A stretch of 64,000 bases of DNA from assembly GCA_032622095.1 (NCBI GenBank), contig CP136067.1:372001-436000 (forward strand), given 5' to 3'. The notes beneath the pieces are model-generated. The model was not told the origin of the DNA, did not search any database, and saw nothing but the letters and a program-made list of their open reading frames with translations. The stretch comes from Siphonodentalium dalli (taxonomy: Eukaryota > Mollusca > Scaphopoda > Gadilida > Siphonodentaliidae). Shown here in pieces: positions 1 to 49,973 of the stretch; within the stretch, counting starts at the first letter, position 1, and every line of letters starts with the position of its first letter. Position numbers and translations under genes: made by a program.

Positions 1-550
1 CCAACAACAAGAGCAATATATCATCACAACTCAAGAGAAATTACAAATCGATCGTAAGTCTCAACAACAATTAATACATACCTAACCCTAACCAAGAACA
101 AGAGCAATATATCATCACAACTCAAGAGAAATTACAAATCGATCGTAAGTCTCAACAACAATTAATACATACCTAACCCTAACCAACAACAAGAGCAATA
201 TATCATCACAACTCAAGAGAAATTACAACTCGATCGTAAGTCTCAACAATTAATACATACCTAACCAACAACAAGAGCAATATATCATCACAACTCAAGA
301 GAAATTACAAATCGATCGTAAGTCTCAACAACAATTAATACATACCTAACCCTAACCAACAACAAGAGCAATATATCATCATAACTCAAGAGAAATTACA
401 ACTCGATCGTAAGGCTCATCAACAATTAATACATACCTAACCCTAACCAACAACAAGAGCAATATATCATCATAACTCAAGAGAAATTACAAATCGATCG
501 TAAGTCTCAACAACAATTAATACATACCTAACCCTAACCAACAACAAGAG
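1..550. repeat. About 90-bp satellite, six copies
   Basis: Six units of agagcaatatatcatcac..., gaaattacaaatcgatcg and acatacctaaccctaacc. Some units are shortened by deletion. Each unit junction carries cctaaccctaacc, two copies of the telomere-like CCCTAA motif. The array is truncated at the window start. Confidence 0.95.
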
Positions 551-2475: not shown

Positions 2476-2609
2476 AGGCGCTGAAAGTTTTAGAGGGTCG
2501 GGAGCCTAAACCTGAAGTCAAGGAAGCACTTGAAAAGTTCAAGGTCAAAAGGCAAGAAGTGGATACTTCATTGATTAAAACGGGGCAAGATCTGCTCACC
2601 GGAAGATTG
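2476..2609 (+). CDS. STAT5: STAT5-like exon 1 of window (coiled coil)
   Basis: First exon visible here. The acceptor follows ttcttccacag and the donor is gtgagt. It enters with two bases of a split codon and ends in phase 0. It encodes about 44 residues, mostly charged and helical ([20 protein letters not shown], then [15 protein letters not shown]), fitting the first half of the STAT coiled coil. The exon end is partly repeated downstream at 2625-2656. Confidence 0.85.
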
Positions 2610-5600
2610 GTGAGTTTACTTTGTTGATTAAAACGGGGCAAGAACTGCTCACCGGTTCTGTGGTTTTAGGGCTGCAGGTCACAGTTCTTGAGTAGCATTT
2701 CCATATATGGAAGTCATGAATATTCAAAAGCTCCATATATGGAAATGCTACTCCTGAACTTTGACCTGTAGCACTAAAACCACGAAACCGGGGCTGGATG
2801 AATCTATGAAAATGCAGAACTGGTGAATCCAATATGGTTGCGAGTTAGTGATACGAGTTCAATGGGTTGGTTAATGGGTTGAACATCTGTTCACGTTTGA
2901 CCTTTTGTAACATTTGTTGGAATTTGCGTTAAATTTTTGTTTCTGGTTGCTAGCTGCACTGAATAGATTGAAATTATGGTATACAAGTTTACAACCACAA
3001 ATTATAGGTCAAGTTAATTATTGGCTTTCATCTTCCATAGGTTGGTGTCAAGCCTGAGTTTAGTGTGCCTGTCATTTGCAGAATGAGGTTCCTAGAGGGT
3101 GAATTTAATGATGCTTTAGCGTAGGGTCCTGCAAATTGGAGATTTTGATCGAATATCAAATCGAATTCAGAAAATCGAATCGAATATCGATTCGAATCAT
3201 ATCTGTATGTTGTATTCTCAATTGGGCATGTTTTGTCAACAATTTGGACGATTTATGAAACATTCCATGAACTACATGCACGAAGTTCCATCATAACTTA
3301 TGTGGCTATGAACCGTCATTTGCAATACTATTAACTTCAATTGATAATTGATTAAAACCTCCATGAGGCTGTCACGATCAATATATAACCACTAAACGGA
3401 TTATTGGAACTAAAATCACGCAAAATTTGTACAGATTTCATGTGCATGCAAAATTGCAAATCAACATTCGGAATCAACCATTGTTATAAATTGAAGATGC
3501 AACAGCAGTAGTGCTGGATGTAGTGCTGGATGTAGTGCTGGATGCTTCTTGGACAGATGATTCCATAGATGGGTCGTTGTCCCAGATACTTGCGATTTAT
3601 ACACCATGTTGCATTCATCACATGTGTAAGCCTGCAGCTTTTTCATGTTTAAAATAAACATGAATAACGGATGACGTTTTGTTAAGTGTCAAAGAACGCT
3701 CCGAAATTGAAAGTAAACTTCAAAAGAAAACACTGCCAAAACGCAGTTTTCGATGCAGGGAACACGTGTTGTTTAAATTCTGAGCTATATTACATAACGC
3801 GGAATCTGAGACGGATAGACCGCGGATAACGCTAGCGGTTGATCAGTCTCATAGCTATTATTATAATTTACGCGCGTCGTCGGTCCAACGGCGATCTCCG
3901 AGCTTTTGGCTACCATGTGTTCAAAGATAGAAATCAGACGTATTTAGTCATCCTATAGTGGCTAATTGCTGTCTATACTTATATTTAATATATATAATCA
4001 TGATGTACAATGAGAATTATAAGGTACATATATACATCATTTTCTGTAATTAAATGGCACAAAACAGCTAAGATCGACGTGTGTACCTGCCCGTAAACAG
4101 CCTACTTTTTCATCAGTGTATATTCAAAATTTCGAGTTGGCAATTTCGAATCGAATCTGACTTTCGAATCGAATATCGAATATTCGCAGGACCCTACTTT
4201 AGCGGGCTAGCATCACCAAATTCACCCTCTGGGGACATCATTCTGCATGGCCTCATCTGCTATGAGAGACATAGACTCAGATTGAGGTTCCCAAATGGTG
4301 AATATTGTGATGTGCACACATTGGGAACCACGTGTATGCAATGTGTCGTCTGCCAATTTGGGCATATAGAGAAACTAAACTAAAAAAGAAATAGAATCTA
4401 TGTGAAGAAGTGTCTATAGAAATTTGATAATAAAGATATTTTCCAGAGAAGATGAGGTCCCCAGAGGGTGAATTTTGTGATGCTAGCCCACTATGTCAAA
4501 TTAATGTAACAGAAGAACCATTTTGCTACCTCCGATGTAGTTCTAATATGGGTATAAACGTTTAACACATTTGAAAATTTACACACACAGTAGAAATTTA
4601 TACCCGCAGTAGGGTGTAAAGATGAAATTTACAAAATAGGCATCAATACACACAATAGAAATTATGGTTTTAAACTATTTCTGTTGGTACCTTATCTCCT
4701 AGCAACTGTAAGCTCCCCGTTGAATATATGTTGGCACCTCCATTGATGGTTGATCATTGTTTCATCAGGAGCTGACTAAAATGCATGAACAGACATTTGA
4801 GATGCTGAATCAACTTCAGAAAAAGGTTCTCGATGATGAGTTGAAGAACTGGAGACGACAACAACAGCTATCAGGAAACGGAGCTCTGTTTGATATGGAC
4901 AGCTTAGAAAAACTACAGGAATGGTGAGCACTAACCAGGCCTCAAAATTCACAGAATGAGGTCCCCAGGGGGTGAATTTGGTGATGCTATCCTCCATAGT
5001 GGGCTAGCATTACCAAATTCACCCTCTTGGGACCTAATTCTGCATTGCCTCAACTGCAATGGGAAACATAGACTGAGATTGTAGTTCCCAAATGGTGAAT
5101 AGTTTGATGTAAACCTTGTTATAGTGATTGGGAACCTCGTTTATGCAATTGTCGTTAACTGAGTTAATTTGACCTTTTTAGGTATGTGCCCTCTCGCAGT
5201 TAACATGGCTGACCTGTAACGTGACCTTTGACCTTTGTAGGTGTGAAGCCCTTGCTGAGTTAACATGGCTGAATCGTCAACAGGTGAAGAAAGAAGAGAT
5301 TCTCGCTCACCAGCTTCCGATCGCTCTGCCGCCCGGACAACAAGACTCAACTCAAGTGCTCAATGCATCCATCACTCAACTCCTGTCTAATTTAGTCACC
5401 AGGTAATAACGACTGCATAAGCCTCGAGATTCGTGAATCGGTCTGATGATTTGATTAGATTCTATCATAGGATTCAACCGTTTCTTTATGAATGCCTTTT
5501 AGCATTCCTGATAATAATTAGATTCGATCATAGGATTCAATTGTTTCTTTATGAATGCCTTATTAGCATTCCTGATAATAATTAGATTCGATCATAGGAT

Positions 5601-8600
5601 TCAATCGTTTCTTTACGAATTGCCTTCTCAGCATACCTGATAATAATTATACCCCCCGCAACGAAGTTAGGGGGGGTATACTGGAGTCAACTAGTCCGTC
5701 GTCCGTCCGTCGTCCGTCCGTGGACACAACTTTGTCCAGATTTTTTCTCAGTCGTTTTTTGATCAATTTCCGTGAAACTTGGCACAGACATCAACCACCA
5801 TGGGAACCTGTGCACCTGCGATTATGACGTCTGTCGGACTTCTTTTGGTGGAGTTATCTCCCCCTTTTTTGACTTAGAAAATGTTCACAACATGTATACT
5901 TTTGTCCGAGCTTTTATTCCTACATTTTTCAGTCAATTTTTTTAAAACGTGGCACAGATATTTAGTACCATGGGAACTTGTGCACCTGCGATTATGACGT
6001 CTGTCCGACATTTTTTGGTGGAGTTATCCCCCTTTTTCGACTTAGAAACTTTTTTTGCAACATGCATAATTTTGTCCGAGGTTTTATTCCTACATTTTTC
6101 TGTCAATGTTTTTTAATCTTGGCACTGATATTTAGTACCATGGGAACCTGTGCACCTGCGATTATGACGTCTGTCCGTCATTTTTTGTGTGGAGTTATTC
6201 CCCTTTTTCGACTTAGAATTTTTTTCGCAACATCCATAATTTTGTCCAAACTTTTATTCCTACATTTTTTTGTCAATAGGTTTAAGATTAGGGTTATGGT
6301 TGTACACCTGCAATGGGAACTGTTATTTTATTATTTTAACTAAATGTTTACTGACATGTGAAACATCTTAGTATTTTAAAAACAGGGGGGTATCCGTAGT
6401 CCCATTGGGACAGTCACGCCTCTAGTTAGATTTGATCATAGGATTCAATCGTTTCTTTACGAATTGCCTTCTCAGCATTCCTGATAATAATTAGATTTGA
6501 TCATAGGATTCAATCGTTTCTTTAGGAATTGCCTTTTCAGCATTCCTGATAATAATTAGATTTGATCATAGGATTCAATCGTTTCTTTATGAATTGCCTT
6601 CTCAGCATTCCTGATAATAATTAGATTTGATCATAGGATTCAATCGTTTCTTTATGATTTGCCTTCTCAGCATTCCTGATAATAATTAGATTTGATCATA
6701 GGATTCAATCGTTTTTTTTATGAATTGCCTTCTCAGCATTCCTGATAATAATTAGATTCGATCATAGGATTCAATCGTTTCTTTATGAATTGCCTTCTCA
6801 GCATTCCTGATAATAATTAGATTTGATCATAGGATTCAATCGTTTCTTTACGAATTGCCTTCTCAGCATTCATGATAATAATTGGAGTCAATATTTAATT
6901 TAGGTGAACCTCTCCACAAACCAATTGTAATGAAACATATTCATTAAGTGTCACAATTGTTGTTTAATTTGTGAATTTGATAACATTACATTTCCAAATT
7001 GATGACTCACATTGGATCTTTTTGCTTTTATTGCACAAATTTACTTTGCGAAATCAGGTTATGTCGGGGCATTGCATGGAATATTATTTCCGGTTGTAAT
7101 GTAACTACGGACGCGCGCCCCGTTGTGTTGTGATATCGGCAGGATTCTGAACGCATAATTAAAAACTATGTTTATATATATAATCTACAAATTTACATGT
7201 AGTACAATAAATTGATGAGATATTATTTTATATATCCATCTGTTCAAGATTTAAAATACGCCGCGATAAAGAAATCAATATAAAAAGTCAATATCTCCCG
7301 GTTTCACATCAAGTCAGCCCAATGCGAGTGCTTCTAAATAAAGGCTCGTTCACAGTTCACATGCAAATATCTCAAATTCATCTTGGGAAGCTTATCTGTG
7401 TGTATGCATATATAACTACCGACTATAAAGTAATATGGTGCTTTTATCAACGCAATATCGATAAAACCAAAAATATTCCAAGCGGCGCATTAGAGCACCT
7501 GATGGTGAAAATGCGGACGTCTTACGGCTAAGTTAGCCCACTGCCATTTTGAACAATTCGCTCTAGTTTTCTGTTATCTATTTAGCATCAATGGAAAACT
7601 CCACCCCTAAACTTGAGCCAATGAAATCAGTTCACACATAATGAATGGTTCCTTCATACCTGGTGACGTTGGCTATATGACGTGGTGTAACTACAGGTGC
7701 TGTTGGGGAAAGGGTTAACCTATATGCTGCACAATGTCACCTTATTTGATGAGTCTTGAATCTATTTCAGTACATTCATAGTTGAGACGCAGCCCCCACA
7801 GGTGCTAAAAAAAGAATCTAAATTTACTGCTACAATCAGGCTACTAGTTGGAGGCAAACTCAACGTTCATATGAACCCGCCAGAGGTCACGGCATCGATT
7901 ATAAGGTATGAACTATGAACCCGCCAGAGGTCACGGTATCTATTATCAGGTATGAGCTATGAACATGCAGGAGGTCACGGTTCCCATATCATCAAGTTAC
8001 AACATTTCTTTAGAATACGATTTAGTTATCAGAATCAATTAATTACTACAGAATAATACCAACCACTGTTAACTATTGTATAAAATTTCCTAAAACGTGT
8101 TATTTATAAACATGTTGTTCAACAAAATATGGCCTTATTATCACTTGATTATCATGAAATTTGGCCATATTACCACTTGATTTTAGAGTTATTTTTGTAG
8201 TGACAAACACAATATATAATTACATCATTTAAGCGAAGATCTGTTTTTATTACAGTGAACAGCATGCACGGTCTCTTCTGAACAACCAGTTTGAGAGCGC
8301 CATGGAAGCAGGAGGAATTCTAAATAATACAGGGACAATGGAGTATCACCAGGCAACCGGCCAGCTGTCTGTAGCATTCAGAAATATGGTACGTCTATAT
8401 ATAGTCATACAGGCAACCGGCCAGCTGTCGGTAGCATTCAGAAATATGGTACATCTATATATAGTCATACAGGCAACCGGCCAGCTGTCTGTAGCATTCA
8501 GAAATATGGTACGTCTATATATAGTCATACAGGCAACTGGCTAGCTGTCTGTAGCATTCAGAAATATAGTACGTATATATATAGTCATACAGGCAACCGG

Positions 8601-11600
8601 CCAGCTGTCTGTAGCATTCAGAAATATAGTACGTATATATATAGTCATACAGGCAACCGGCCAGCTGTCTGTAGCATTCAGAAATATGGTACGTCTATAT
8701 ATAGTCATACAGGCAACCGGCTAGCTGTCTGTAGCATTCAGAAATATGTCTATATATAGCAGTGGCGGATCCAGAAAATTTGAAAAGGGGGGGGGGGGGC
8801 GCTATGTATTGTTGTATATATGATGCGTAGCATATTCTGAGCCACTACGCGACAAGATGGGGGTTTAACCCCCCTCTCGTAGGTTGGGATCCGTATTTTG
8901 CGTATACCACATTCAAAACGACACATTTTCCTGTGTTCTGGGCCCAGTTTATATTGCTTTATATTAGGCCTATATGGAACGATTGACAATAACATTCAGT
9001 ACAATTACGGTATACTATGGAGGGTTAGTGATGGAAGATCAAAGCTTCTTTGAACAGTGAACTTATTTTCTGAAAGTCTGCAAATGATAGTGAATTATCT
9101 GGGTGACATGATGATTTTGGCGCGCCGGACATGCCCATAGAATAAGCCCCCGGAATCACCGAGTCGCCTATGGTTTGGGCTGGTGCATGGGAGAATATTT
9201 TGTAATTCAGAATGAATAATCGCAAAATCATGGCTTCTAGACAGTACTAGTATAGAGGTGTTTCGGCTGGCAAACCAATGCATCTATCCAACCACTTAAT
9301 TCTTCCATTGACCATGCTGATTTTTTCAGTTTTACTTCTAATAGCCATCAGCTTCATGATACACCAGCAAAATAAGTCATCAATACAGGCCAAACAAGTG
9401 GTCCGATCACACTCCAATCCTGTACTCGTTTTATTAGTATAAACACAGTCACCAAAAAATATCTGACACCGAACTGATTAACTAGTATACCAATCCCCTA
9501 TTCATCTACATTCTGGTTGCTACATTCTGGTTGCATCCATAATGTTAATTAAAATATCTGTTGTGTAAATGTTTAGGTCATGAATAAATGTTCAGTCAAT
9601 CAACTGACTGATGACGATAACGACACATGGAGACCGATGTTTTGAAGGACTCGTGACTTTTTTTTTATTAAGCAATGGCTGATGCATATTTGTCGTGACC
9701 TAAAGATGGCTTGTTATCACACATTTGTTCCAATTAGGGTGGCACAACATGTGATGGAAGATATAACCTATTTTAAATGCCATGCATATATACCATTGGA
9801 AACGAACCAACAATGTATTTCTATAATAATTCGAAAATACACTATGTATACGTTACTTGTATACCATAGTTGTATGGCTTGTGTGCATTTAGATAATCTC
9901 TTTACGATGATACTGCCGCCAGTGCGTTTTATAATCCATGCGTTGATCGGACTACATTGTTTAACCTAGAGTGCACTGTGGACGACTCATGTTTATCATT
10001 CATGTTCTTTACATATAGATGGAATTGTCTAAATGTTGACTCCATTTTTAGAATTGCTATATTTATTTTTGATAGAAATATTCAGTGTTGAAACTTCGGG
10101 TGCCCAAAACTTGGCCCCTGGCGAGATATTTTCCGACACTCCGATACAAAATGTCGCAGAAATTGTTTGCTCTGCATGGCGAAAAATAGCACGGGGGCCC
10201 TCATTCAATTGATAGTTTGATAGTTTGGAAGCTCACTTTATCTTTTCATTTCAACTATATTTACGTTCCGTATTTTTATATGAATCAGATATGTAGTTCT
10301 GCGTGCTGATAAATATTATTGTGACGATATTAAAATGATCACATTCTAATATTACCTAACCACATGATCATAATCACTTATTTCCTCTTCCAGCAACTCA
10401 AGAAGATAAAGAGGGCTGACAGAAAGGGCCAAGAGGTATCTATGTTATAGGTGCTGTTCTAACCTTATTCATGATGGGGGGGGGGGGCTTCGCTAGTGCA
10501 GCATCAAAGATCCTGTGCCAGTGCATTCTCTTATATGCGCGAGACTCCTATTCAGAGCTTGCATATATAAAAGAATATACTGGCTTACAAGGTCGAGATA
10601 AATATTGTATGGGTCAATTTATTCTCTTATATATGCGAGGCCATGGGAGACTTGCATATATTACAGAATGCATTGGCACAGGGTTTTCACAAAATTTCTA
10701 GAAGCTCCAGTCATGGAAGTGTTCTATATGTTTTTTATGTATCATGATACTTGCATGTGTCATATGCATAATAACATTCCCTCCTACACTGAAAAATCTA
10801 CAGATACAGAAGTATGATAACCCTTTGATGACTGGAGCTTCTTGAAATTTTGCAAACACCCTGTGCCAATACATTCTCTTATATATGTGAGTCGCTCATG
10901 GGGTGCCTCTTATATATAAGAGAATACATTGGCCTAACAATATTTATTTTGACCTTGTAAGCCAGAGCAACCTCTTATATATATGGGGCTCCCTATGGGA
11001 GACTTGCATATGTAAGAGAATGCACTGGCACAGGATCTTTAATGCTACACCAACACAGCTCCCGTCATGAAAAGGTTAATATGGCTACTGTTAATGTAGC
11101 ATAATTGCACTGGAAGTATCATTCTTCCCACAAGGACAGTCCCCTTCTCTAGTTTATATCATATGTACTGCACTGTGGGCTATCCTTCGTCCCACTAGGA
11201 CAGTCCCCTTCTCTAGTTTATATCATATGTACTGCACTGTGGGCTATCCTTCGTCCCACTAGGACAGTCCCCTTCTCTAGTTTATATCATATGTACTGCA
11301 CTGTGGGCTATCCTTCATCCCACTAGGACAGTCCCCTTCTCTAGTCTATATCATATGTACTGCACTGTGGGCTATCCTTCGTCCCACTAGGACAGTCGTG
11401 TCTATAGTCCATAGTTAAATTCATCTTTATGTGAGTTAACTGGAATGTGTGTGTTGGTGTGATAAAAGAGGGATAACTCTATATGTAGAATTGTTGGTGT
11501 TTTCCAACAACAAATAATGACCATCAGATTGATTAACTAAATTAACACACAATATGTCTTTAACCCTTTCTATAATAAATGGATTCTCCCACTCAGTTAT

Positions 11601-47600: not shown

Positions 47601-49748
47601 CATTCTCTTATATATGCTAGGCGACCTATGGTCGACTCGCATATATAAGAGAATGCATTGGCACAGGGCCATTCTATTGGGTAAAGGGTTAATAGTAAGG
47701 TGTGAACTGTTGAAAAGGTTGGTGCAAGGATTTATGAAAATAGATAATCGCTATGACCAAGATATGGGTTAAACATCTGCCGATCATGATCGGCCTCTCG
47801 TTATTTGAAAAAAAACAATAGAACTAAATTTATGAAAAAAATAAAACACAATTTTTTTCTCATGATATTTGGCTGGCAACAGGAGAAACTCATCACTGCC
47901 ACTGATTGCATTCTGTATGGTCTGTACCTGTATACTGATTGCATTCTGTATGGTCTGTACCTGTATACTGATTGCATTCTGTATGGTATTGGCTACTGCA
48001 AATATTACACACGATGGAAGATAATTCAGTTGAAAAAGTCATGACAGGTTGTGCATTCATTTTTGTTTGTACTAGTGCAAAATAACAACCAGGACTTTTC
48101 AATAATTGTGAAACAAATGCGGATAAAAATGTCATCATTCATTTGATATTTCATCAAAATTTAAAGTCTTGCGTTACTTTTTCTGGTGAATTTAGAGACT
48201 GCACATGTACCACATGGGAGAGCCGATAAAACCTCAAATAACTACTAGTATCAAACATGACCAAGACGCCCTCTTGTCAAACTGTATTTCGTTCCGGTTT
48301 CCGTTCCTAACTTTGGAAATCTCCAGAATTTTTAGAATCTGTTATCGAAATTTAATGAAATTTATCCCATGGGATAACTACTTATCAATGATACTTTAGT
48401 ATAGAAAGGGTTAAAACTTATTATCTGAACATTTCATTGGGATAACAACTTATCAATGATGCTTTAGTACAGAAAGGGATAAATGTTTCTAATTTGCAGA
48501 TCAAATATCAATGCCGCCGATTCACATCCATTATACTTCAAAGCCAATTTATAAACTTCAACAATTTTTTCAGTATAATTCATTTCATCAAGGGTGAGTT
48601 TGGCAAATTAAGATCAGACTAATAGATTTGCTTCAAGGCTGTGGTACACCTCTAAATCAATTCTTGATTTAGTTATTCTCATATTACATATACACGTTTC
48701 GCAAGCCAAGCTTTTTGACAAAATCCCACCTCTTGTTTAGCACATACTGAGAACGCAAACATTATTGAGAATGCACTTCCCCAACTGCACACTTCGGTGG
48801 GGGATACCGTCGTCTGCGACTACTTGTTGGAGAAATGTTTTGAAAATTTACAGGCATCTTTAGGATCACCTCTATCAAATTTTAGAGATTTTCAATGAAA
48901 AACAGCCATCTTGCATTTTACTCTTTGCATGACTAAATCTTTTGGCACACCCTACAGGCCACATCCCTCCAATCATCACCAAACTTCATATGGATCTTCG
49001 GAGTGACCTCTAGATGGGAGCCATCGATATTTTCTGAAATTTGTTTTAAAATATGGCCACCAGCAGCCATCTTGGTTTTCAAATTTGAATCCATCGGTTC
49101 AGCCCGCAGCCTGTTTTGAAAATTTGCAGGGCTGTTTAGGATCACCTCTAGATGGAAGCCATCGAATTAAAAAAAAATTCGATGAAAAACATGGCCACTG
49201 GCAGTCATCTTGGATTTTACTCTTTGCATGACTAAATCCTTTGGCACACCCTGCAACCCACATACCTTATCCGATCATCACCAAACTTTATATGGATCTT
49301 CATGGTGACATCTTTTCTTTTTTTCGAAATTCTTAGAAAAAAACACGGAGTGACCTCTAGATGGGAGCCATCGATTTTTCCTGAAATTTGTTATAAAACA
49401 TGGCTGCTGGCCAGCAGCCATCTTGGATTTCAAATATTAATCCATCCGCACACCCTGCAGCCCACATGTATTGGTGAAATGTTTTAAATCTACACAATAC
49501 AAGACCTTTACTGCACGGTTTCTGTTTTCCTTCTTCTTATCATTCTATTCATTGCTCAGCAAAACATATACTCCTTCCCAAGTTGAGCTACAGTGTCATT
49601 GACCATTTCATTCTTTTGAAGATCAACTATCGACGCCGCTGCAGCTGCAGCTCTCGGTCTGGAGAGCACTCATCTCGAATTTATGACAGATTACAACACG
49701 GATGACATTGACAGCATCCTACAGAATGCCATCGAGAAAATGACGTGA
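2476..49748 (+). CDS. STAT5: STAT5-like signal transducer and activator of transcription, 16 exons, 5' end outside window
   Basis: Latent cytoplasmic transcription factor. In the known family it is phosphorylated on a C-terminal tyrosine by JAK kinases, dimerises through SH2-phosphotyrosine contacts and enters the nucleus. The spliced exons are 2476-2609, 4769-4923, 5241-5402, 7771-7905, 8256-8388, 10394-10435, 12707-12790, 13230-13322, 18526-18661, 19330-19388, 24120-24214, 29409-29551, 34618-34773, 36946-37012, 37916-38044 and 49622-49748. They total 1850 nt, about 615 residues plus TGA. All junctions are GT-AG and in phase. Diagnostic stretches are [54 protein letters not shown] and DGYIK. 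STAT5 (about 790 residues) is a closer match than STAT1-4 because of [18 protein letters not shown] and KRIKRADR-type motifs. Roughly 180 N-terminal residues and the promoter are missing to the left. Domain assignment is by remembered family similarity, not by a search. Confidence 0.95.
2610..2656 (+). repeat. Echo of the exon 2476-2609 3' end
   Basis: The 32 bp at 2625-2656 repeat exon bases 2571-2602 (ttgattaaaacggggcaag onward) with one substitution, offset by 54 bp. The donor itself is not preserved in the echo. Confidence 0.85.
3122..4196 (-). mobile_element. Non-autonomous hAT transposon with 8-bp target duplication
   Basis: Terminal inverted repeats tagggtcctgc / gcaggaccctа-type ends: 3122-3132 and 4186-4196 are exact inverses. 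They are flanked by a perfect 8-bp duplication CTTTAGCG at 3114-3121 and 4197-4204. Subterminal regions are rich in tcgaatcgaatatcg-type words. On the minus strand, 3461-3661 encodes [12 protein letters not shown], then [11 protein letters not shown], which fits the C-x2-C...H-x4-H pattern of a BED zinc finger of hAT transposases. The catalytic domain is absent, so it is a deleted derivative. Confidence 0.9.
3461..3661 (-). pseudogene. BED zinc-finger fragment of a hAT transposase
   Basis: 66-residue reading frame inside the hAT element. The visible finger is CDEC followed about 17 residues later by [10 protein letters not shown]. Downstream it runs into a degenerate HPALHPAL repeat produced by a 13-bp tandem repeat (tgtagtgctggat). 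No catalytic hAT dimerisation domain follows, so it is a remnant rather than a working transposase. Confidence 0.7.
4769..4923 (+). CDS. STAT5: STAT5-like exon 2 of window (coiled coil)
   Basis: Acceptor tttcatcag, donor gtgagc, phase 0 in and phase 2 out. It encodes a helical segment with [15 protein letters not shown], which corresponds to the WKRRQQLAGNG motif of vertebrate STAT5. The last two bases (TG) join the G of the next exon to make the Trp of the EWCEALAEL motif. A fold-back repeat begins only about 25 bp after the donor. Confidence 0.93.
4940..5160 (+). mobile_element. Family C fold-back repeat fragment
   Basis: Paired arms cagaatgaggtccccagggg and accctcttgggacctaattc, followed by the family body (gttcccaaatggtgaatag). 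It is inserted between the exon 2 donor and the exon 3 acceptor echo. Confidence 0.75.
5168..5216 (+). repeat. Echo of the acceptor and 5' edge of exon 5241-5402
   Basis: The string tttgacctttttag followed by GTATGTGCCCTC and GTTAACATGGCTGA mirrors the true acceptor tttgacctttgtag with GTGTGAAGCCCTT and GTTAACATGGCTGA about 71 bp downstream. It retains a plausible AG acceptor. Confidence 0.8.
5241..5402 (+). CDS. STAT5: STAT5-like exon 3 of window (end of coiled coil)
   Basis: Acceptor acctttgtag, donor gtaata. It encodes [19 protein letters not shown] and continues to [13 protein letters not shown], matching the last coiled-coil helices of STAT5. It ends with AG, which is completed to Ser by the first base of the next exon. 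A degenerate copy of the acceptor and first exon bases lies immediately upstream at about 5168-5216. Confidence 0.94.
5410..6890 (+). repeat. About 71-bp minisatellite interrupted by an inserted element
   Basis: Unit contains gatcataggattcaatcgtt, tctttatgaattgccttctc and agcattcctgataataatta. Three units lie at 5440-5650 and seven at about 6420-6890, with an unrelated 0.77-kb insertion between them. Confidence 0.9.
5648..6425 (+). mobile_element. Dispersed repeat of the TATACCCCC type (family D)
   Basis: Begins with a small hairpin (taccccccgc aacgaagtta ggggggta), then cgtccgtccgtc and three roughly 170-bp internal repeats (ccatgggaacctgtgcacct). It ends with ggggggtatccgtagtccca. A related copy is at 37136-37755. 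The class is unknown. Its insertion splits the surrounding minisatellite. Confidence 0.7.
6891..7770. other. Intron, nothing recognised
   Basis: AT-rich intronic sequence between the minisatellite and the exon at 7771. A 69-residue ORF at 7322-7531 has no recognisable features. The polypyrimidine tract and acceptor of exon 4 end the region. Confidence 0.6.
7771..7905 (+). CDS. STAT5: STAT5-like exon 4 of window (start of DNA-binding domain)
   Basis: Acceptor atctatttcag, donor gtatga. It encodes [18 protein letters not shown] and [16 protein letters not shown], nearly identical to the opening of the vertebrate STAT5 DNA-binding beta-barrel. The last bases AG are completed to Ser by exon 5 ([13 protein letters not shown]). 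The exon end plus donor is repeated twice just downstream (7914-7949 and about 7957-7995). Confidence 0.97.
7906..7996 (+). repeat. Two echoes of the exon 7771-7905 3' end and donor
   Basis: A 44-bp unit (tatgaacccgccagaggtca... with gtatga donor) recurs at 7914-7949 with a donor gtatgag, and in a more diverged form at about 7957-7995. The extension would read into TGA directly (TAT GAA CTA TGA). Confidence 0.88.
8256..8388 (+). CDS. STAT5: STAT5-like exon 5 of window (DNA-binding domain)
   Basis: Acceptor tttattacag, donor gtacgt. It encodes [20 protein letters not shown], then [15 protein letters not shown] and FRNM, collinear with STAT5 ([17 protein letters not shown]). It ends in phase 0. 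The last 39 coding bases plus 21 intron bases form the first of seven 60-bp tandem units, each with its own donor-like GT. Confidence 0.96.
8350..8757 (+). repeat. Seven 60-bp tandem units spanning exon end and donor
   Basis: Units start at 8350, 8410, 8470, 8530, 8590, 8650 and 8710. Each has 39 bp of coding-like sequence (CAGGCAACCGGCCAGCTG...), a GTACGT-like donor and 21 bp of intron. The period is a multiple of three, and the frame stays open through the first three units until a TAG in unit 4 (ggctagctg). The last unit lost its donor. Confidence 0.95.
8760..10393. other. Intron with one hAT-type terminus, otherwise unassigned
   Basis: cagtggcggatccagaaaat at 8760 looks like the 5' terminus of a common hAT subfamily, followed by a G-run and sequence to about 9000. 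No matching inverted end was found, so it is a solo or truncated end. The remainder to the micro-exon at 10394 shows no gene. ORFs of 60-95 codons here have no motifs. Confidence 0.55.
10394..10435 (+). CDS. STAT5: STAT5-like exon 6 of window (14-residue micro-exon, DNA-binding domain)
   Basis: A 42-bp micro-exon between cctcttccag and gtatct, phase 0 on both sides. It encodes [14 protein letters not shown], matching the basic segment LKRIKRADRRGAE of STAT5. It is too short for ORF finding and is recognised only by sequence, splice sites and phase. Confidence 0.93.
10459..11079. mobile_element. Two adjacent piggyBac-like MITEs of family B
   Basis: First copy runs from taaccttattcatgatgggg to about 10725 (aagctccagtcatggaagtg). 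The second runs from ataaccctttgatgactgga (10817) to cccgtcatgaaaaggttaa (11079). Both contain inverted arms of gccaatgcattctcttatat. TTAA-like ends and CCCTTT starts suggest piggyBac-type mobilisation. Confidence 0.75.
11095..11400. repeat. About 62-bp minisatellite, five copies
   Basis: Unit contains catatgtactgcactgtggg, ctatccttcgtcccactagg and acagtccccttctctagttt. Units are nearly identical, implying recent expansion. Confidence 0.95.
11401..11799. other. Intron, nothing recognised
   Basis: AT-rich sequence without repeats or coding motifs that I can identify, between a minisatellite and a fold-back repeat. Confidence 0.5.
11800..12696 (+). mobile_element. Family C fold-back repeat split by a piggyBac-like MITE
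   Basis: Runs from aagcctcagtttagggtgtc through the family body to cgtcacttaa at 12170. It resumes after the nested MITE at ctctctggggacctcattct and ends with the doubled cacactaaactcaggc terminus at about 12694, only 12 bp before the exon 7 acceptor. Confidence 0.88.
12171..12629. mobile_element. piggyBac-like MITE, family A
   Basis: Flanking TTAA on both sides (12171-12174 and 12626-12629), inverted ends TTAACCCTTTACCCAACA and its inverse. Inside are two near-perfect hairpins of about 68 bp, with arms gccaatgcattctcttatat and gcgag/ctcgc. TTAA duplication with CCCTTT termini is the piggyBac hallmark; no transposase is present. Confidence 0.88.
12707..12790 (+). CDS. STAT5: STAT5-like exon 7 of window (DNA-binding domain)
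   Basis: 28 codons, phase 0 on both sides, acceptor tattcttgcag and donor gtaagt. It encodes [18 protein letters not shown] and FKVW, matching the SVTEEKFTVLFESQFSVG segment of STAT5. The acceptor lies only about 12 bp after the end of a fold-back repeat (aaactcaggctt). Confidence 0.95.
13040..13162. mobile_element. Family C solo palindrome
   Basis: Arms agaatgaggtccccacaggg and accctctggggacctcattc around gctagcccgctatgcgtgat, ending aggcacactaaactcagac about 65 bp before the exon 8 acceptor. Confidence 0.8.
13230..13322 (+). CDS. STAT5: STAT5-like exon 8 of window (end of DNA-binding domain)
   Basis: 31 codons, phase 0 on both sides, acceptor tcatctttcag and donor gtaagt. It encodes [14 protein letters not shown] and [12 protein letters not shown], the most conserved part of the STAT5 DNA-binding domain, which carries the VTVHG and WDNAFAE motifs. 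Confidence 0.97.
13410..15001. mobile_element. Unclassified DNA transposon with iterated terminal 15-mers
   Basis: Left end has three or more copies of GGACGTTTCGGCACC (13412-13518). The right end has the inverse GGTGCCGAAACGTCC several times (14890-14996). The outermost 26 bp at each end are inverted repeats. ORFs inside (for example 14097-14363 on minus, 14519-14740 on plus) show no transposase motif I recognise. Confidence 0.7.
15166..15473 (+). mobile_element. Fragment of dispersed repeat family D2
   Basis: Starts with the hairpin acccataccatagtatggta, then cgtccatctgtttgtctgtc and ttgatccgactatttttaa. The same start recurs at 45495, 55673 and 62617. Confidence 0.75.
15474..18110. mobile_element. 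TA-flanked DNA transposon, probably pogo/Tigger-like
   Basis: Inverted ends CCGTACTGACCCG (15474) and CGGGTCAGTACGG (ending 18110), flanked by TA on both sides. Subterminal sequences are also inverse (gtttaggccca and tgggcctaaac). It shares an internal segment (cttccagattaagtaaaggt... ttactttaagaaagt) with the element at 19990-22597, and is interrupted by a family E array at 16485-17945. No transposase ORF remains. Confidence 0.8.
16485..17945 (+). repeat. Family E array nested in the TA-flanked transposon
   Basis: About eight tandem 165-bp units from ttttttagctcaacttactt to gagctacagtgtcattgaca, with the gccagcagccatcttggatt core. The minus-strand ORFs here are artefacts of this repeat. Confidence 0.88.
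18243..18312. mobile_element. Family B MITE remnant
   Basis: ggtgcagcattacagatcct and ccagtgcattctctcatata match the right portion of family B; the other half is missing. Confidence 0.6.
18526..18661 (+). CDS. STAT5: STAT5-like exon 9 of window (linker domain)
   Basis: Acceptor tttactttcag, donor gtaagt, phase 0 in and phase 1 out. It encodes [20 protein letters not shown], then [17 protein letters not shown], matching the linker of STAT5 (FAVPDKVLWPQL, NRGLTKENLVFLAQKLF). The 3' end plus donor is duplicated at 18668-18692 and again, more degraded, near 18720-18740. Confidence 0.95.
18662..18745 (+). repeat. Two echoes of the exon 18526-18661 3' end
   Basis: TTACCTAGCAACCAA is repeated at 18671 and 18721. 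The first echo keeps the whole TTGTTTG|gtaagt junction and the second is truncated. Reading past the first donor meets TAG in the echo. Confidence 0.88.
18840..19215 (+). repeat. 16-17-bp minisatellite (GGATCATGTATGGTGTG)
   Basis: Dozens of head-to-tail ggatcatgtatggtgggg units, preceded by longer units with tcagtgagaacatgttacac. Overlapping ORFs of up to 153 codons in three frames are products of this array and should not be annotated. Confidence 0.95.
19330..19388 (+). CDS. STAT5: STAT5-like exon 10 of window (linker, 59 bp)
   Basis: Small exon with acceptor tacattttag and donor gtaaat. It completes Gly with the previous exon and ends in phase 0. It encodes [19 protein letters not shown]. 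The WSQFN motif is a STAT5 linker signature. Confidence 0.92.
19455..19830 (+). repeat. Diverged family E copies
   Basis: Contains ggcacaccctacaggccaca, aacatggccgccaatagcca and tttggcacaccctacaagct. It starts 70 bp after the exon 10 donor. Confidence 0.75.
19990..22597. mobile_element. TA-flanked DNA transposon with GC-rich subterminal repeats
   Basis: Inverted ends begin CAGC..TGCTC and continue TAAGCGACCTGTTTTAACGA at left; the right end is the inverse (acctcgttaaacaggtcgct, then gagcatagctg). TA lies at 19988-19989 and 22598-22599. Both subterminal 200-bp zones are packed with accgcggt/gcggta words, a sharp GC island in AT-rich DNA. The internal core resembles 15610-15760. The 104-residue ORF at 21450 shows no recognisable domain. 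Ends and TA duplication suggest pogo/Tigger affinity. Confidence 0.8.
22645..22825. repeat. About 60-bp minisatellite, three copies
   Basis: catctgcagacacccgttac, ccgctcgcgatctgacctcg and cctaactatatgtcgagt recur three times with small indels. Confidence 0.92.
22936..23260 (-). repeat. Family E, minus-strand copy
   Basis: gtgtcaatgacactgttgtt, aaatccaagatggacgttgg and ggatttagtcatacaaagaa are the inverse of family E sequence, including its terminal segment. Confidence 0.7.
23261..24119. other. Intron before exon 11, nothing recognised
   Basis: No coding motif or repeat family is evident. It ends in the polypyrimidine tract ctctccctttcttcttttcag. Confidence 0.5.
24120..24214 (+). CDS. STAT5: STAT5-like exon 11 of window (linker to SH2)
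   Basis: Acceptor cttcttttcag, donor gtaatt, phase 0 in and phase 2 out. It encodes [20 protein letters not shown] and RPHWNEG, matching NLPGWNYTFWQWFDGVMEV and KPHWNDG in STAT5. Gly is completed by the A of the next exon. Confidence 0.96.
24280..24465 (+). mobile_element. Family C fragment
   Basis: gatatagagaaacttaacca, cagagaagataatgcctaag and agaatgaggttcccagaagg followed by a short inverse arm. Confidence 0.65.
24846..25280. repeat. 43-bp minisatellite, about ten copies
   Basis: Unit gatatctcacttcacagcat plus gtaaggatatgtaagcatgt. Two units are shortened by an internal deletion. Confidence 0.95.
25298..26340. repeat. 28-bp minisatellite of about 34 copies inside a family B MITE
   Basis: Array of aaaaccctgtgtcaatgcat + tctcttat. 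The left flank has the family B start (tccatgactagaacttcctg, aaattttgggaaaaccctgtg) and the right flank has its end (atatatgcgagtctcccg, gcagctcccatcatgtta). Several units lack one A (gtgtcatgcatt). Overlapping ORFs here are artefacts. Confidence 0.95.
26373..26805 (+). mobile_element. Family C, near full-length copy
   Basis: Runs from gtctgagtttagtgttcctg to caggcacactaaactcggct. It has two internal palindromes (about 26408-26470 and 26692-26785) joined by the family body (agttctcaaatggtgaatat, ctaaactaaaaaaggaatag). Confidence 0.88.
27155..28511. mobile_element. Unclassified DNA transposon with CAGGGATTTTT ends
   Basis: Inverted ends CAGGGATTTTT (27155) and AAAAATCCCTG (ending 28511), flanked by GGTTA on both sides (27150-27154, 28512-28516). 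The subterminal regions include caattttggtctg/ccaattttcaaccacc words. The start resembles hAT termini, but the visible duplication is 5 bp, so assignment is open. No transposase recognised; the 82-residue minus ORF at 27856 has no motif. Confidence 0.6.
28513..29400. repeat. Complex tandem and inverted minisatellite with inserted LINE tail
   Basis: At 28513-28635 the units read ggttactatggttactataa, gagaatgatatgatttagtt; from about 28636 on they read in the inverse sense (ctcccttatagtaaccatag). A 117-bp higher-order unit repeats three times at about 28970-29330. At 28743-28930 an unrelated piece starting agaataactttatttgcc looks like the 3' tail of a minus-strand LINE (inverse ends aaataaagttattct). 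The array runs up to the SH2 exon acceptor. Confidence 0.85.
29409..29551 (+). CDS. STAT5: STAT5-like exon 12 of window (SH2 core)
   Basis: Acceptor tctctttag, donor gtatgg. It encodes [19 protein letters not shown], then [19 protein letters not shown]. The Arg of FLLRFSDS is the conserved phosphotyrosine-binding residue of SH2 domains, so the domain looks functional. It ends in phase 1. About four degraded 60-bp copies of the exon end follow, to 29763; the first retains a gtatgg donor. Confidence 0.97.
29552..29763 (+). repeat. Tandem echoes of the SH2 exon 3' end
   Basis: About 60-bp units carrying a diverged version of the exon end (TGGTCAGCatacgatacaag, agacagatag) followed by gtatggtttcagtg. 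Four copies are visible with progressive decay. The donor is intact in the first echo and altered to atgtatgg or atggatgg in later ones. Read-through stops at TGA (GTT CAG TGA). Confidence 0.88.
29945..30245. repeat. About 60-bp minisatellite, five copies
   Basis: Unit gggatagatattagatatac, aaccggctggtgttcacatt and accatgtttcatga. The ORFs at 29833 and 29999 are artefacts of it. Confidence 0.93.
30246..31239. other. Intron, nothing recognised
   Basis: No motif-bearing ORF or identified repeat. Words such as aatggcggccaaaatggtc hint at an old, diverged dispersed repeat. Confidence 0.45.
31633..33309 (+). mobile_element. pogo/Tigger-like transposon remnant with TA duplication
   Basis: Ends CAGTGAAAACTGC (31633) and the inverse ...AACAGGTTTCACTG (ending 33309), flanked by TA at 31631-31632 and 33310-33311. 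Subterminal words cgaccact/agtggtcg and acgacc recur, as is usual for Tigger-type elements. At 1677 bp it keeps only a transposase C-terminus (32229-32591), so it is an internally deleted copy. Confidence 0.87.
32229..32591 (+). pseudogene. C-terminal fragment of a pogo/Tigger-type transposase
   Basis: 120 residues: an acidic stretch ([27 protein letters not shown]) followed by a basic-polar tail ending [14 protein letters not shown]. Acidic segment plus a terminal Q-x-K/S-x-x-x-F-F motif is typical of the C-termini of Tigger/jerky-like transposases. The DNA-binding and DDE catalytic domains are missing. The Met may not be a real start. Placement inside TIRs with TA duplication supports the call. 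Confidence 0.65.
34381..34590. mobile_element. Family B MITE fragment plus short hairpin repeat
   Basis: gtaagccagtgcattatctt with its inverse arm, ending gcagctcccgtcatgaaagg. It is followed by tactcctgtatggagcctca and cagtcatcagtgcattgttc, the inverse of sequence at 38075-38250. Exon 13 starts 28 bp later. Confidence 0.75.
34618..34773 (+). CDS. STAT5: STAT5-like exon 13 of window (C-terminal SH2)
   Basis: Acceptor tcaattccag. It completes Gly with the previous exon and encodes [27 protein letters not shown] and [10 protein letters not shown], matching [20 protein letters not shown] and KDEVFSKYYTP of STAT5. It ends in phase 1 at the first gtgagt donor. That donor lies in the first of eight tandem 53-bp units, so the true 3' end could be ambiguous at DNA level. 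Reading past the first donor hits TAA at once (GGT GAG TAA). Confidence 0.95.
34728..35151 (+). repeat. Eight 53-bp units, each with exon end and gtgagt donor
   Basis: Units begin at 34728, 34781, 34834, 34887, 34940, 34993, 35046 and 35099. Each is atccaaaaggacaaag/actt... ccgcggGTGAGTA. The first is real exon. Units differ by few substitutions and no indels, so amplification is recent. The 53-bp period shifts frame and each junction reads into TAA. Confidence 0.95.
35475..35597. mobile_element. Family C solo palindrome
   Basis: Arms agaatgaggtccccagagtg and caccctctggggacctcaat with loop gctagcccgctgtgcgggat. Confidence 0.8.
35635..36712 (+). repeat. Family E tandem array
   Basis: Six or more units of gccgccagcagccatcttgg / gacatgtagatgggaacaag, ending in gttgagctacagtgtcattg. 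It lies 230 bp upstream of exon 14. Confidence 0.88.
36946..37012 (+). CDS. STAT5: STAT5-like exon 14 of window (phosphotyrosine segment)
   Basis: 67-bp exon between tttgatgcag and gtaagt, encoding [19 protein letters not shown]. The Tyr in DGYIK aligns with the JAK-phosphorylated tyrosine of STAT5 (DGYVK). Phases match both neighbours. Confidence 0.95.
37136..37755 (+). mobile_element. Family D dispersed repeat
   Basis: Starts with hairpin atacccccactttc...gaaaatggggtgtat, then cgtccgtcacgc and two internal repeats (acttagaaaattctgtccga). It ends cacggtgggggtatgctagc, actcgagtgcacacctcttg. Compare 5648-6425 and 57830-57850. Confidence 0.75.
37756..37915 (+). repeat. Two echoes of the exon 37916-38044 5' edge
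   Basis: CATACC..CAGTATCAACAACC (37756 on) and CATACCTTCAAATGCACAAG (37835 on) match the start of the exon, each followed by ccataaata and a T-run that leads into the next unit. The AG acceptor is changed to tcgactg before the nearer copy. Period is about 78 bp. Confidence 0.85.
37916..38044 (+). CDS. STAT5: STAT5-like exon 15 of window (Ser/Pro-rich C-terminal region)
   Basis: Acceptor tttttcgacag, donor gtgagt. The first base completes Gly. It encodes [20 protein letters not shown], then [20 protein letters not shown]. It is rich in Ser, Pro, Tyr and Asp, as expected for a transactivation region. Two degenerate copies of its 5' edge lie upstream (about 37756-37787 and 37835-37882). Confidence 0.88.
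38060..38255. repeat. Two direct copies of a 95-bp hairpin repeat
   Basis: ttatggagcccctgacagag, acaatgcactgatgactgtc and ggggctccatacgggagtgt occur twice. Each copy is itself an imperfect hairpin (tggagcccc / ggggctcca). Confidence 0.85.
38256..38457 (+). repeat. Dispersed repeat, intact copy of the segment inverted at 43117-45400
   Basis: Contains agttatcttgcccactgaac, aggaagggttaacaaacccc, tatggtacattttatcatgg and gaccacgtaatctccgatcc in one continuous run. The inverse of all four occurs at 43117-45400, where a LINE interrupts it after catgacctcct. Confidence 0.85.
38458..38857. mobile_element. piggyBac-like MITE, family A
   Basis: TTAA at 38458 and 38854, ends TTAACCCTTTACCCAACA and inverse, two hairpins built on gccaatgcattctcttatat, and a loop rich in ttttttaacactttttacc. 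Confidence 0.92.
38858..39540. other. Intron, nothing recognised
   Basis: AT-rich sequence between a MITE and the PAM2-motif region, with a short A-rich run near 39318. Confidence 0.45.
39571..40145 (+). pseudogene. Pro-rich reading frame with a PAM2 (PABP-binding) motif
   Basis: Open from just after a stop near 39570, with the first Met at 39612. The sequence is Gly/Pro/Ser-rich ([19 protein letters not shown]) and then [14 protein letters not shown]. The last segment fits the PAM2 consensus L-N-x-x-A-x-E-F-x-P, which binds the MLLE domain of poly(A)-binding protein. The parental gene is not identified. Possible sources are a retrocopy of a PABP-interacting protein or a retroelement ORF. 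GC content is visibly higher than in the surroundings. A degenerate second copy follows at about 40171-40631. Confidence 0.55.
40171..40640 (+). pseudogene. Degenerate tandem copy of the PAM2-motif sequence
   Basis: Repeats the order ccgttggcgggttggcatgc, cgtccattactacaagtcac, tactggccgccttctgatca and gggtttgaatccggatggac. The motif here reads [13 protein letters not shown], losing the key Ala. Frame breaks and stops show decay. The stretch gttcggacggatggagatcg also occurs in both copies. Confidence 0.7.
40688..40760 (+). repeat. tRNA-like SINE head fragment
   Basis: cgccgtagccgagtggttat is a good tRNA A-box region, and gactgcaaacttgg resembles an anticodon arm with a GCA (Cys-like) anticodon. 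The B box is degraded (gggatcgacc) and no acceptor stem closes, so this is not a functional tRNA gene. Confidence 0.6.
40761..41270. other. Intron, nothing recognised
   Basis: No gene or repeat family identified. It ends at the TTAA of the next MITE. Confidence 0.4.
41271..41662. mobile_element. piggyBac-like MITE, family A, right end truncated
   Basis: TTAA and TTAACCCTTTACCCAACA at left. At right the sequence stops at tctgttgggtaa and lacks the final agggttaa. Its interior is almost identical to 38458-38857, so the two copies are recent relatives. Confidence 0.9.
41826..42142 (+). mobile_element. tRNA-derived SINE with (AATC)n tail
   Basis: Head: ggcctcggtggctcaatcgg (A box TGGCTCAATCGG) and aagggttcaaatccac (B box GGTTCAAATCC), spaced as in a tRNA with a long variable arm. 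The body runs through ggtttgccgcacatggttga and gcggatttcctccaccacta to a tail of caatcaatcaatcaatc. Pol III promoter boxes appear intact. Confidence 0.88.
42143..43116. other. Intron, nothing recognised with confidence
   Basis: Moderately GC-rich stretches (42440-42700) give short ORFs on both strands, none with a domain I recognise. Possibly a decayed retroelement. Confidence 0.4.
43396..44823. mobile_element. TA-flanked DNA transposon nested in the LINE
   Basis: Inverted ends CTGTTATTCCCTAAGTAAAT and its inverse (ending 44823), with TA at 43394-43395 and 44824-44825. Subterminal zones are rich in gcggttaa/taaccgc words. 1428 bp, no transposase frame. Ends resemble the 56-bp mini-element at 55430-55485. 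Confidence 0.8.
44914..45261 (-). pseudogene. C-terminal fragment of a LINE reverse-transcriptase polyprotein
   Basis: 115 residues including [38 protein letters not shown] and [16 protein letters not shown]. The pattern R-x-x-x-H-x-L-x-x-E-x-x-R-W, then C-x-x-C and E-x-H-F-x-x-x-C, is the usual C-terminus of CR1/RTE-like LINE polyproteins in invertebrates. The first Met is probably internal: the catalytic reverse-transcriptase part is absent because of 5' truncation. Confidence 0.8.
45490..47180 (+). mobile_element. Family D2 long copy
   Basis: Starts with acccataccttgtatggtat hairpin and cgtccggatcaaccatctgt, followed by diverged internal repeats. It ends near tctgcctgactatggactga. The second half (46380-47130) is collinear with 63400-64000. 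Confidence 0.75.
47251..47692. mobile_element. piggyBac-like MITE, family A
   Basis: TTAA at 47251 and 47689, ends TTAACCCTTTACCCAACA and inverse. Two hairpins; the first has a shortened loop (gtcgacgtcgcc). The loop region between hairpins is expanded by extra ttacattctttaacaattt units. Confidence 0.9.
47693..48839. other. Intron with a 33-bp triple repeat and a 40-bp hairpin repeat
   Basis: 47765-47802 holds the dispersed hairpin motif gccgatcatgatcggc. 47895-47990 holds three copies of ctgattgcattctgtatggt + ctgtacctgtata. 48715-48835 resembles the right end of family D. No gene recognised. Confidence 0.6.
48840..49612 (+). repeat. Diverged family E array ending at the last STAT5-like exon
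   Basis: Units with gcacaccctacaggccacat, atggccaccagcagccatct and cctctagatgggagccatcg. The family's terminal segment (aagttgagctacagtgtcat tgac) ends about 10 bp before the acceptor of the terminal coding exon at 49622. Confidence 0.8.
49622..49748 (+). CDS. STAT5: STAT5-like terminal coding exon (acidic transactivation tail)
   Basis: The acceptor follows catttcattcttttgaag. The first A completes GG from exon 15 across an 11.6-kb intron. It encodes an alanine run and then [18 protein letters not shown] before Thr and TGA. The acidic amphipathic tail resembles in character, not in sequence, the acidic helix of vertebrate STAT5 transactivation domains. Phase match and the stop support the assignment. 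The same coding block recurs twice immediately downstream (49749-49853 and 49854-49973). Confidence 0.85.
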
Positions 49749-49973
49749 CATAGCCCTCAGTCTGGAGAATGCTCAGCTCGACTTTATGACTGTAACAGAT
49801 TACAACACGGATGACATAGACAGCATCCTACAGAACGCCATTGAGAAAATGACGCGTCACTGCCGTCAGCCCTCGGTCTAGAGAACGATCAGCTCAACTT
49901 TATGACTATGACAGATTACAACACTGATCTCATCGACAGCATTCTACAGAACACCATTGAGAAAATGACGTAA
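49749..49973 (+). pseudogene. Two tandem extra copies of the STAT5-like terminal coding block
   Basis: Copy 2 (49749-49853) and copy 3 (49854-49973) each repeat the CTCGGTCTGGAGA to GAGAAAATGACG segment of the last exon. Copy 2 has a TAA produced by an indel (gactgtaacag) and ends in ACGCGT without the TGA. Copy 3 has a TAG (ggtctagag) and ends in ATGACGTAA. If transcribed they lie in the 3' UTR of the normal transcript. No acceptor AG with a good pyrimidine tract precedes either copy, so independent splicing looks unlikely. Confidence 0.85.

Follow-up and report, generated by a model that had tools for sequence, protein, structure and literature searches.

A STAT gene in the 64,000-nucleotide stretch of DNA analysed here (the window, C7:372001-436000, with the gene on the plus strand, in a genome of 2.23 Gb in nine contigs) has short tandem arrays, or echoes, across several of its exon edges, and such arrays also occur at exon edges in other gene families. 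We consider that these echoes are probably minisatellites that were founded in place and are tolerated at exon edges, and that they belong to the phenomenon called 'mirages' in amphioxus. A short segment of 30-130 bp, lying by chance across an exon edge, would have been duplicated in tandem, presumably by slippage or template switching, and the duplicates would then have expanded within the intron. Selection on the protein would maintain the exon-side copy, and splicing at the exon-proximal site would leave the coding exon unchanged, so that the duplication would be tolerated, while the intronic copies would drift and vary in number like other minisatellites. With a high genomic background of such arrays, many exons would hence acquire one. 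In-place origin is borne out for the two arrays tested, and arrays are common to two copies of the gene, two of them with a different number of units; both observations support this reading. Donors (5' splice sites) may be additionally favoured as seeds.

Echo arrays at the exon edges of the STAT gene

An earlier sequence-only reading of the window had described sixteen exons of one gene, nine of them with echoes that repeatedly start within coding sequence. The sixteen exons (E1-E16; Table 1) are confirmed by homology together with splice-signal placement, and all nine echoes exist. Seven are found by our detector and one is the triplication of E16; the weak one at the exon starting at 5241 (E3), a single diverged copy in the window, is a clean 60-bp array of 3.4 copies with 95% identity in another, nearly identical copy of the gene, which lies on contig C5.

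Arrays were searched for with Tandem Repeats Finder (TRF) and with a lag-alignment detector (ungapped self-alignment at lags of 20-250). In the window, the detector places 6/15 donors (those of E1, E4, E5, E9, E12 and E13) and 1/16 acceptors (that of E15) inside arrays whose unit spans the exon boundary. The first units of the donor arrays are partly exonic, as had been claimed: the arrays begin 27-46 bases inside the exon, the first unit takes in the donor with 5 to 23 bases of intron, and copy number ranges from 1.7 to 8.1. TRF also reports the arrays at E4, E5, E9, E12 and E13, but neither E1 nor E15.

The pattern is also seen upstream of the window. E0, an 82 bp STAT exon whose first intron base is C7:371605, has an array that starts 54 bp before its donor and ends at window position 550, with a unit that encodes QQQEQYIITTQEKLQ; there is no exon beside this array within the window itself. 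No array was detected at the donor of the other upstream exon, where the opening bases of the intron are repeated some 45 bases further along (by eye, with loosely placed edges). Exon-containing arrays thus lie at 7/17 donors examined in the STAT gene, window and upstream exons together.

In a search of the 2.2 Gb of DNA, the E13 unit matches only at the STAT gene itself and the E5 unit only there and at the C5 copy, indicating that these two arrays arose in place, although such searches skip common words and are not proof of absence elsewhere. A mobile or pre-amplified repeat, for instance an introner-like element or a miniature inverted-repeat transposable element, might instead have inserted at the exon edges, and the introns do contain dispersed palindromic elements, some with internal minisatellites. 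However, every echo unit examined copies its own exon, and the two units searched (2/2) are confined to STAT gene copies, which makes insertion a very improbable source.

A second copy of the gene

The second STAT copy lies at C5:248239415-248293966 (part in L003-L005) and runs from the N-terminal exon through E10. Its aligned stretches are about 95-97% identical to the window (88% over one 0.7-kb stretch), and all of E1-E10 were located in it by alignment, 4/10 of these exons being identical. For E11-E16, the SH2 half, there is no match on C5 among those listed, whereas the N-terminal exon and most of E1-E10 matched. The copy may be a partial segmental duplicate (a paralogue) or a misplaced haplotype.

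The E1, E4 and E9 echoes are structurally unchanged in the C5 copy, while copy number differs between the C5 and C7 gene copies at E3 and E5. Arrays common to both gene copies must hence predate the split of the copies. The comparison also bears on the idea that the repeats were invented or multiplied at exon edges by the assembler. The evidence base is a single assembly; yet the separately placed C5 copy has the E1, E3, E4, E5 and E9 arrays with substitutions and copy numbers of its own, and many private substitutions are found in the intronic copies, so an assembly artefact is most unlikely.

At 2566-2580 in E1, the C5 exon reads TTTG, as the intronic echo does, and the window exon reads TTCA. 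Either the window copy has changed here, or the exon was converted by its echo.

Echo arrays in other gene families

The sequence-only reading had described the pattern within one gene. It is not peculiar to that gene, as shown by a sample of 180 exon matches of the chaperonin, kinesin and SNF2 families, each taken with 500 bp flanks. The sampled loci comprise 42/53 chaperonin, 98/123 kinesin and 40/73 SNF2 matches. Left out were apparent near-duplicates (judged by coordinates and profile positions, 9 of them chaperonin), 2 long open chaperonin matches, some long matches with many stops and a remainder of the kinesin and SNF2 matches, as well as 85 myosin matches; some of the loci taken overlap or have dispersed repeats in common.

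Edges were called by splice-signal score in the open frame, which gave an automatic count of 11/156 donors and 4/170 acceptors, and a manual view of the hits and of every array touching a coding match led to the curated count. Curation added four donors (L036, L080, L104 and L108) and one acceptor (L010), found by eye. It removed the L123 acceptor, whose array is purely intronic and stops just before the true AG, and left uncounted the L058 donor and the L127 acceptor, whose arrays reach only 4-6 bases into the exon. The L027 donor was placed at 692, and its array covers the candidate positions 734, 681 and 692 alike. Since the re-examination was limited to array-bearing loci, the denominators are slightly small, and p values were also computed with 180.

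In the curated count, arrays lie at 15/159 placed donors (chaperonin 5/38, kinesin 10/86, SNF2 0/35) and at 4/172 placed acceptors (chaperonin 1/41, kinesin 1/91, SNF2 2/40). Echoes are therefore not confined to STAT, and several percent of the sampled edges carry one. By the first edge call the 180 loci also hold 71 non-edge arrays, of which five were later assigned to edges, with one edge call withdrawn. Mean identity in that first count is 0.935 for edge arrays (15) and 0.910 for non-edge arrays (71), and edge arrays are hence not older-looking. Just 1 array lies wholly within coding matches across the 180 loci.

Enrichment at donors and acceptors

Edges were compared with the intronic background under two nulls, one using all positions covered by arrays (8.5% of intronic positions in the sampled loci and 25.0% in the window) and the other only the founding units. 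In the window, 7/31 splice edges lie in an array, which is no excess under the coverage null (binomial p = 0.69), and 6/15 donors lie in a first unit, compared with 5.0% of intronic positions (p = 5e-5). The latter value is post hoc, because the gene was singled out for this feature, and a sounder test is offered by the other genes, whose sampling involved no such choice.

Under the coverage null the sampled donors show no excess, the ratio being 1.10 (95% interval 0.61-1.72) or 1.29 (0.69-2.11) depending on the threshold. Since an array grows by insertion and the exon holds its first unit only, the first units of intronic arrays are, in our view, the fairer comparison. Here the donor ratio rises to 3.12 (95% interval 1.55-5.44) or 4.40 (2.02-8.35), and on the automatic count the two values are 2.27 (0.91-4.22) and 3.45 (1.39-6.80). 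For acceptors the founding-unit null gives no excess (4/172; ratio 0.64 or 0.88). The positions of the arrays give a similar picture: 15 or 14 arrays start in the 80 bp of donor-spanning exon end, whereas intronic bins of this size average 5.6 or 4.2 starts (p = 0.003 or 0.0009), and array ends at acceptors are not in excess (4 compared with 6.2 or 4.2 per intronic bin). Donors in the sample are thus three- to fourfold above founding chance and acceptors are not, at a modest sample size. The donor excess may reflect seeding or survival.

Duplication was also scored directly, by matching the final 36 bases of the exon against the 150 intronic bases that follow (score 12 or more, edges before curation). 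Donors gave 11/154 hits, intronic anchors 12/154 and distant introns 4/154; the corresponding values for acceptors were 9/168, 13/168 and 2/168. As the edge counts are close to those of the intronic anchors, the local duplication rate at edges looks intron-like.

Several of these results weigh against founding that is uniform along the gene, as in-place origin with simple tolerance would have it. If founding were uniform, donors and acceptors should be hit equally often, with first-unit hits at about 2-3% of donors. The sample has 14/159 such hits against 2.8% (p = 0.0002) or, by the other threshold, 13/159 against 1.9% (p = 0.00001), and p is still 0.0007 or 0.00004 with all 180 exons as denominator. 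Moreover, the imbalance between donors and acceptors (15/159 and 4/172; p = 0.008, or 0.013 by the other threshold) means that tolerance or seeding must differ between them. STAT also stands above the sample (6/15 compared with 15/159 donors, p about 0.004), though it was chosen for this feature.

A rival reading is that 5' splice sites are preferred seeds of tandem duplication, for instance through nicks, R-loops or template switching linked to transcription where the exon ends. The first-unit excess, the concentration of array starts and the donor/acceptor imbalance all speak for such seeding, as does the array at E0, which lay outside the view of the sequence-only reading. In addition, the units average just 37% intron (mean intron share 0.37, KS, that is Kolmogorov-Smirnov, p = 0.045, n = 17, six from STAT; in this set the L124 unit is displaced by a small gap, the L027 edge is 11 bases off and the four later donors are absent). 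On the same intron shares, a hot spot for breakpoints immediately beyond the donor was considered and rejected as weak. On the other side, donors show no excess over array coverage and acceptors none at all, the SNF2 exons have 0/35 donor arrays, and four donors and one acceptor among the sample hits were added by eye. Exon-side copies are also expected to decay more slowly, which would keep edge arrays detectable for longer, and a better tolerance of donor than of acceptor duplication would yield the identical imbalance. We regard donor seeding as a serious possibility, with somewhat less than an even chance of being right. The sequence-only reading had proposed seeding at exon edges in general, to be seen as enrichment over the intronic background; our sampled scan bears this out for donors under the founding-unit null, but not for acceptors and not against raw array coverage.

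Splice sites within the echo copies

The alternative offered by the sequence-only reading was selection for spare splice sites; the echoes might also be retained to serve as alternative sites. A complete donor is indeed present in many echo copies (the motif is intact in 7/7 at E13 and in 14/14 at L098), and the E5 units are in frame and open. However, when echo and exon copies are compared in 17 donor arrays, the donor motif has mismatches at 21/531 positions, little different from the rest of the unit (106/1799 for the exon-derived and 32/466 for the intron-derived part). GT is retained in 50/59 echo copies and lost in 9/59, whereas the overall mismatch rate predicts about 52 retained. The spare GT is thus not specially conserved, and selection for spare donors is not supported. 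Unit length is divisible by three in only 10/22 cases (8/18 in an earlier count, p = 0.32), indicating no frame bias, and copy number is unequal between the gene copies at E3 and E5. Selection for spare sites accordingly seems very improbable as the reason why echoes persist.

The 60 bp echo units of E5 (8256-8540) remain open through the first units. Since they are in frame, splicing from a later donor would lengthen the DNA-binding region by 20-residue repeats.

Gene identity, exon layout and other arrays

The spliced exon translation finds STAT5A as its best match (E 6e-148), and STAT5/6 rank above STAT1/2/3 (E11 being absent from the query). Judged by homology across the coiled coil, DNA-binding, linker and SH2 regions, the window gene is a STAT5/6-type STAT. 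The linker exon E11 was placed by eye. Upstream of the window, the N-terminal domain exon lies at C7:358681, and two further STAT exons, E0 among them, were found within C7:362001-372000 (E 3e-4 and 0.05, with a STAT5 probe).

Table 1. Exons of the STAT gene and associated tandem arrays (window positions)
Feature	Position	Strand	Remarks
Upstream exon E0 donor echo, right-hand part	1..550	+	~91-bp unit, ~11 copies, ~1 kb in total
E1, coiled coil	2476..2609	+	
E1 donor echo	2564..2655	+	lag 53, 1.7 copies; detector only; same structure in C5 copy
E2	4769..4923	+	no detected echo
E3 acceptor echo	5171..5271	+	~60 bp unit, single diverged copy, by eye; below detector in window
E3	5241..5402	+	
E4	7771..7905	+	
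E4 donor echo	7870..7981	+	44 bp, 2.5 copies; same structure in C5 copy
E5	8256..8388	+	133/133 bases identical in C5 copy
E5 donor echo	8350..8748	+	60 bp, 6.7 copies; about 4.9 copies in C5 copy
E6	10394..10435	+	no detected echo
E7	12707..12790	+	no detected echo
E8	13230..13322	+	no detected echo
E9	18526..18661	+	
E9 donor echo	18635..18699	+	32 bp, 2 copies; partial third at ~18721-18740 by eye; same structure in C5 copy
E10	19330..19388	+	no detected echo
E11, linker	24121..24215	+	no detected echo
Intronic array ending at E12 acceptor	28927..29407	+	supplies pyrimidine tract; no exon bases in unit; not scored as echo
E12, SH2	29409..29551	+	
E12 donor echo	29512..29765	+	59 bp, 4.3 copies (TRF)
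E13	34618..34773	+	
E13 donor echo	34728..35154	+	53 bp, 8.1 copies
E14	36946..37012	+	no detected echo
E15 acceptor echo	37768..37963	+	lag 82; detector span 37822-37963 and a further partial copy by eye; no TRF call
E15	37916..38044	+	
E16, terminal coding exon with stop	49622..49748	+	
E16 triplication	49682..49970	+	two more copies of the last ~100 bases, past the stop

Copies 2 and 3 of the E16 triplication keep an open frame, with a raw ratio of nonsynonymous to synonymous change (dN/dS) of 0.23-0.30 between copies (p 0.01-0.02, on small numbers), and before copy 2 there is an AG at which E15 could be joined to it in frame (by eye). They look coding-constrained and are possible candidates for alternative last exons.

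Some arrays stop at a splice site or only a few bases past it, namely 28927-29407, L006:2798-2955, L123 and L127 at acceptors and L058 at a donor. Those abutting acceptors supply the pyrimidine tract, and none of these arrays was scored as an echo.

A 28-bp, 34-copy array at 25347-26290 lies, by eye, within a dispersed palindromic element, and the end sequence of this element is seen again in several of the window's introns. Arrays built from a related unit of ~164 bp are found at 1707-2313, 16505-17824 and 35810-36610, and at other positions in the C5 copy; their presence at several sites indicates that a dispersed repeat can form arrays here too.

Relation to mirages and other known systems

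The sequence-only reading knew of no named description of such a pattern, but one exists. Tandem repeats spanning exon-intron boundaries are named mirages in amphioxus Adh3 and described in the globins BflGb6 and BflGb9 (PMC3087553), and they are noted for PGBD5 and cited for troponin C in amphioxus (PMC3902484). In the globins both boundaries are affected, and haplotypes of one gene have 6 and 3 units; reverse-transcription PCR suggests normal splicing, and the authors propose mirages as a source of new introns (PMC3087553). Somatic instability is reported for the mirages at Adh3. A literature search, weak on subscription journals, gave no further clear case of boundary-spanning repeats besides those cited here.

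The STAT arrays have boundary-spanning units, affect both exon boundaries and show length instability between gene copies (E3 and E5). As in the mirages so described, their units consist of the exon end, the adjoining intron and the splice signals, at donors as well as acceptors, measure tens to ~160 bp, and differ in copy number between gene copies or haplotypes. Unlike the described amphioxus cases, many are found in one STAT gene, and their frequency has been sampled across three families. Ordinary intronic minisatellites are alike in unit length, identity and copy-number change, but in the echoes the first or last unit holds coding sequence and the exon's own splice site.

Similarities to two further systems are also apparent. 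In the model of intron gain by tandem duplication of AGGT segments, the duplication is reportedly what produces the new intron. The echoes resemble such cases in being local tandem duplications that copy splice signals; however, the STAT duplications lie at exon edges that already exist, with no sign of a new intron. A potato RdRp case, with an intron gained when AGGT-bearing segments were duplicated in tandem in the genome, is reported (PMC4974935), and the Rogers model of intron gain by tandem duplication is cited in PMC3087553. In human segmental duplications, variable minisatellites are found at exon-intron boundaries and in some genes are reported to form novel introns (PMC2812944). These minisatellites lie at boundaries of recently duplicated genes and vary between paralogues, much as here. 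Some of the human repeats are reported to create introns or lengthen exons, with transcript support, whereas the STAT coding exon looks unchanged.

The mirages described in these accounts come from a cephalochordate, and a cephalochordate host is not part of the definition. In the present genome we found 12 innexin matches at E 1e-82 or better. The genome search gave no GFP-family match, a missing match not being proof of absence, and no mollusc haemocyanin domain, which shows little. The innexin matches, together with the missing GFP family, speak for a protostome and against a lancelet. What is new here is the probable protostome host, the genome-sampled frequency and the donor bias; the phenomenon itself was already known.

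Implications

Ordinary minisatellites do not reveal their founding unit or the direction of their growth. In edge arrays selection keeps the exonic copy close to its ancestral sequence, so that both can be read and each array carries its own root. With several percent of sampled donors affected, edge arrays would be frequent enough for a direct measurement of what they do to splicing, to the length of exons and to the gain of introns, and for a test of splice junctions as mutational hot spots.

If the host is a protostome, mirages extend beyond lancelets. A stronger proposition, which we hold only tentatively, is that tandem duplication in this genome, probably that of a protostome, starts preferentially at 5' splice sites, at about 3-4 times the intronic founding rate, and that exon ends are continually copied into introns. 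If such donor seeding is true, exon ends would give rise to mirages as a mutational by-product that is widespread among animals with unstable genomes, and the duplicated donors would form a standing reserve from which exons could be extended and introns gained.

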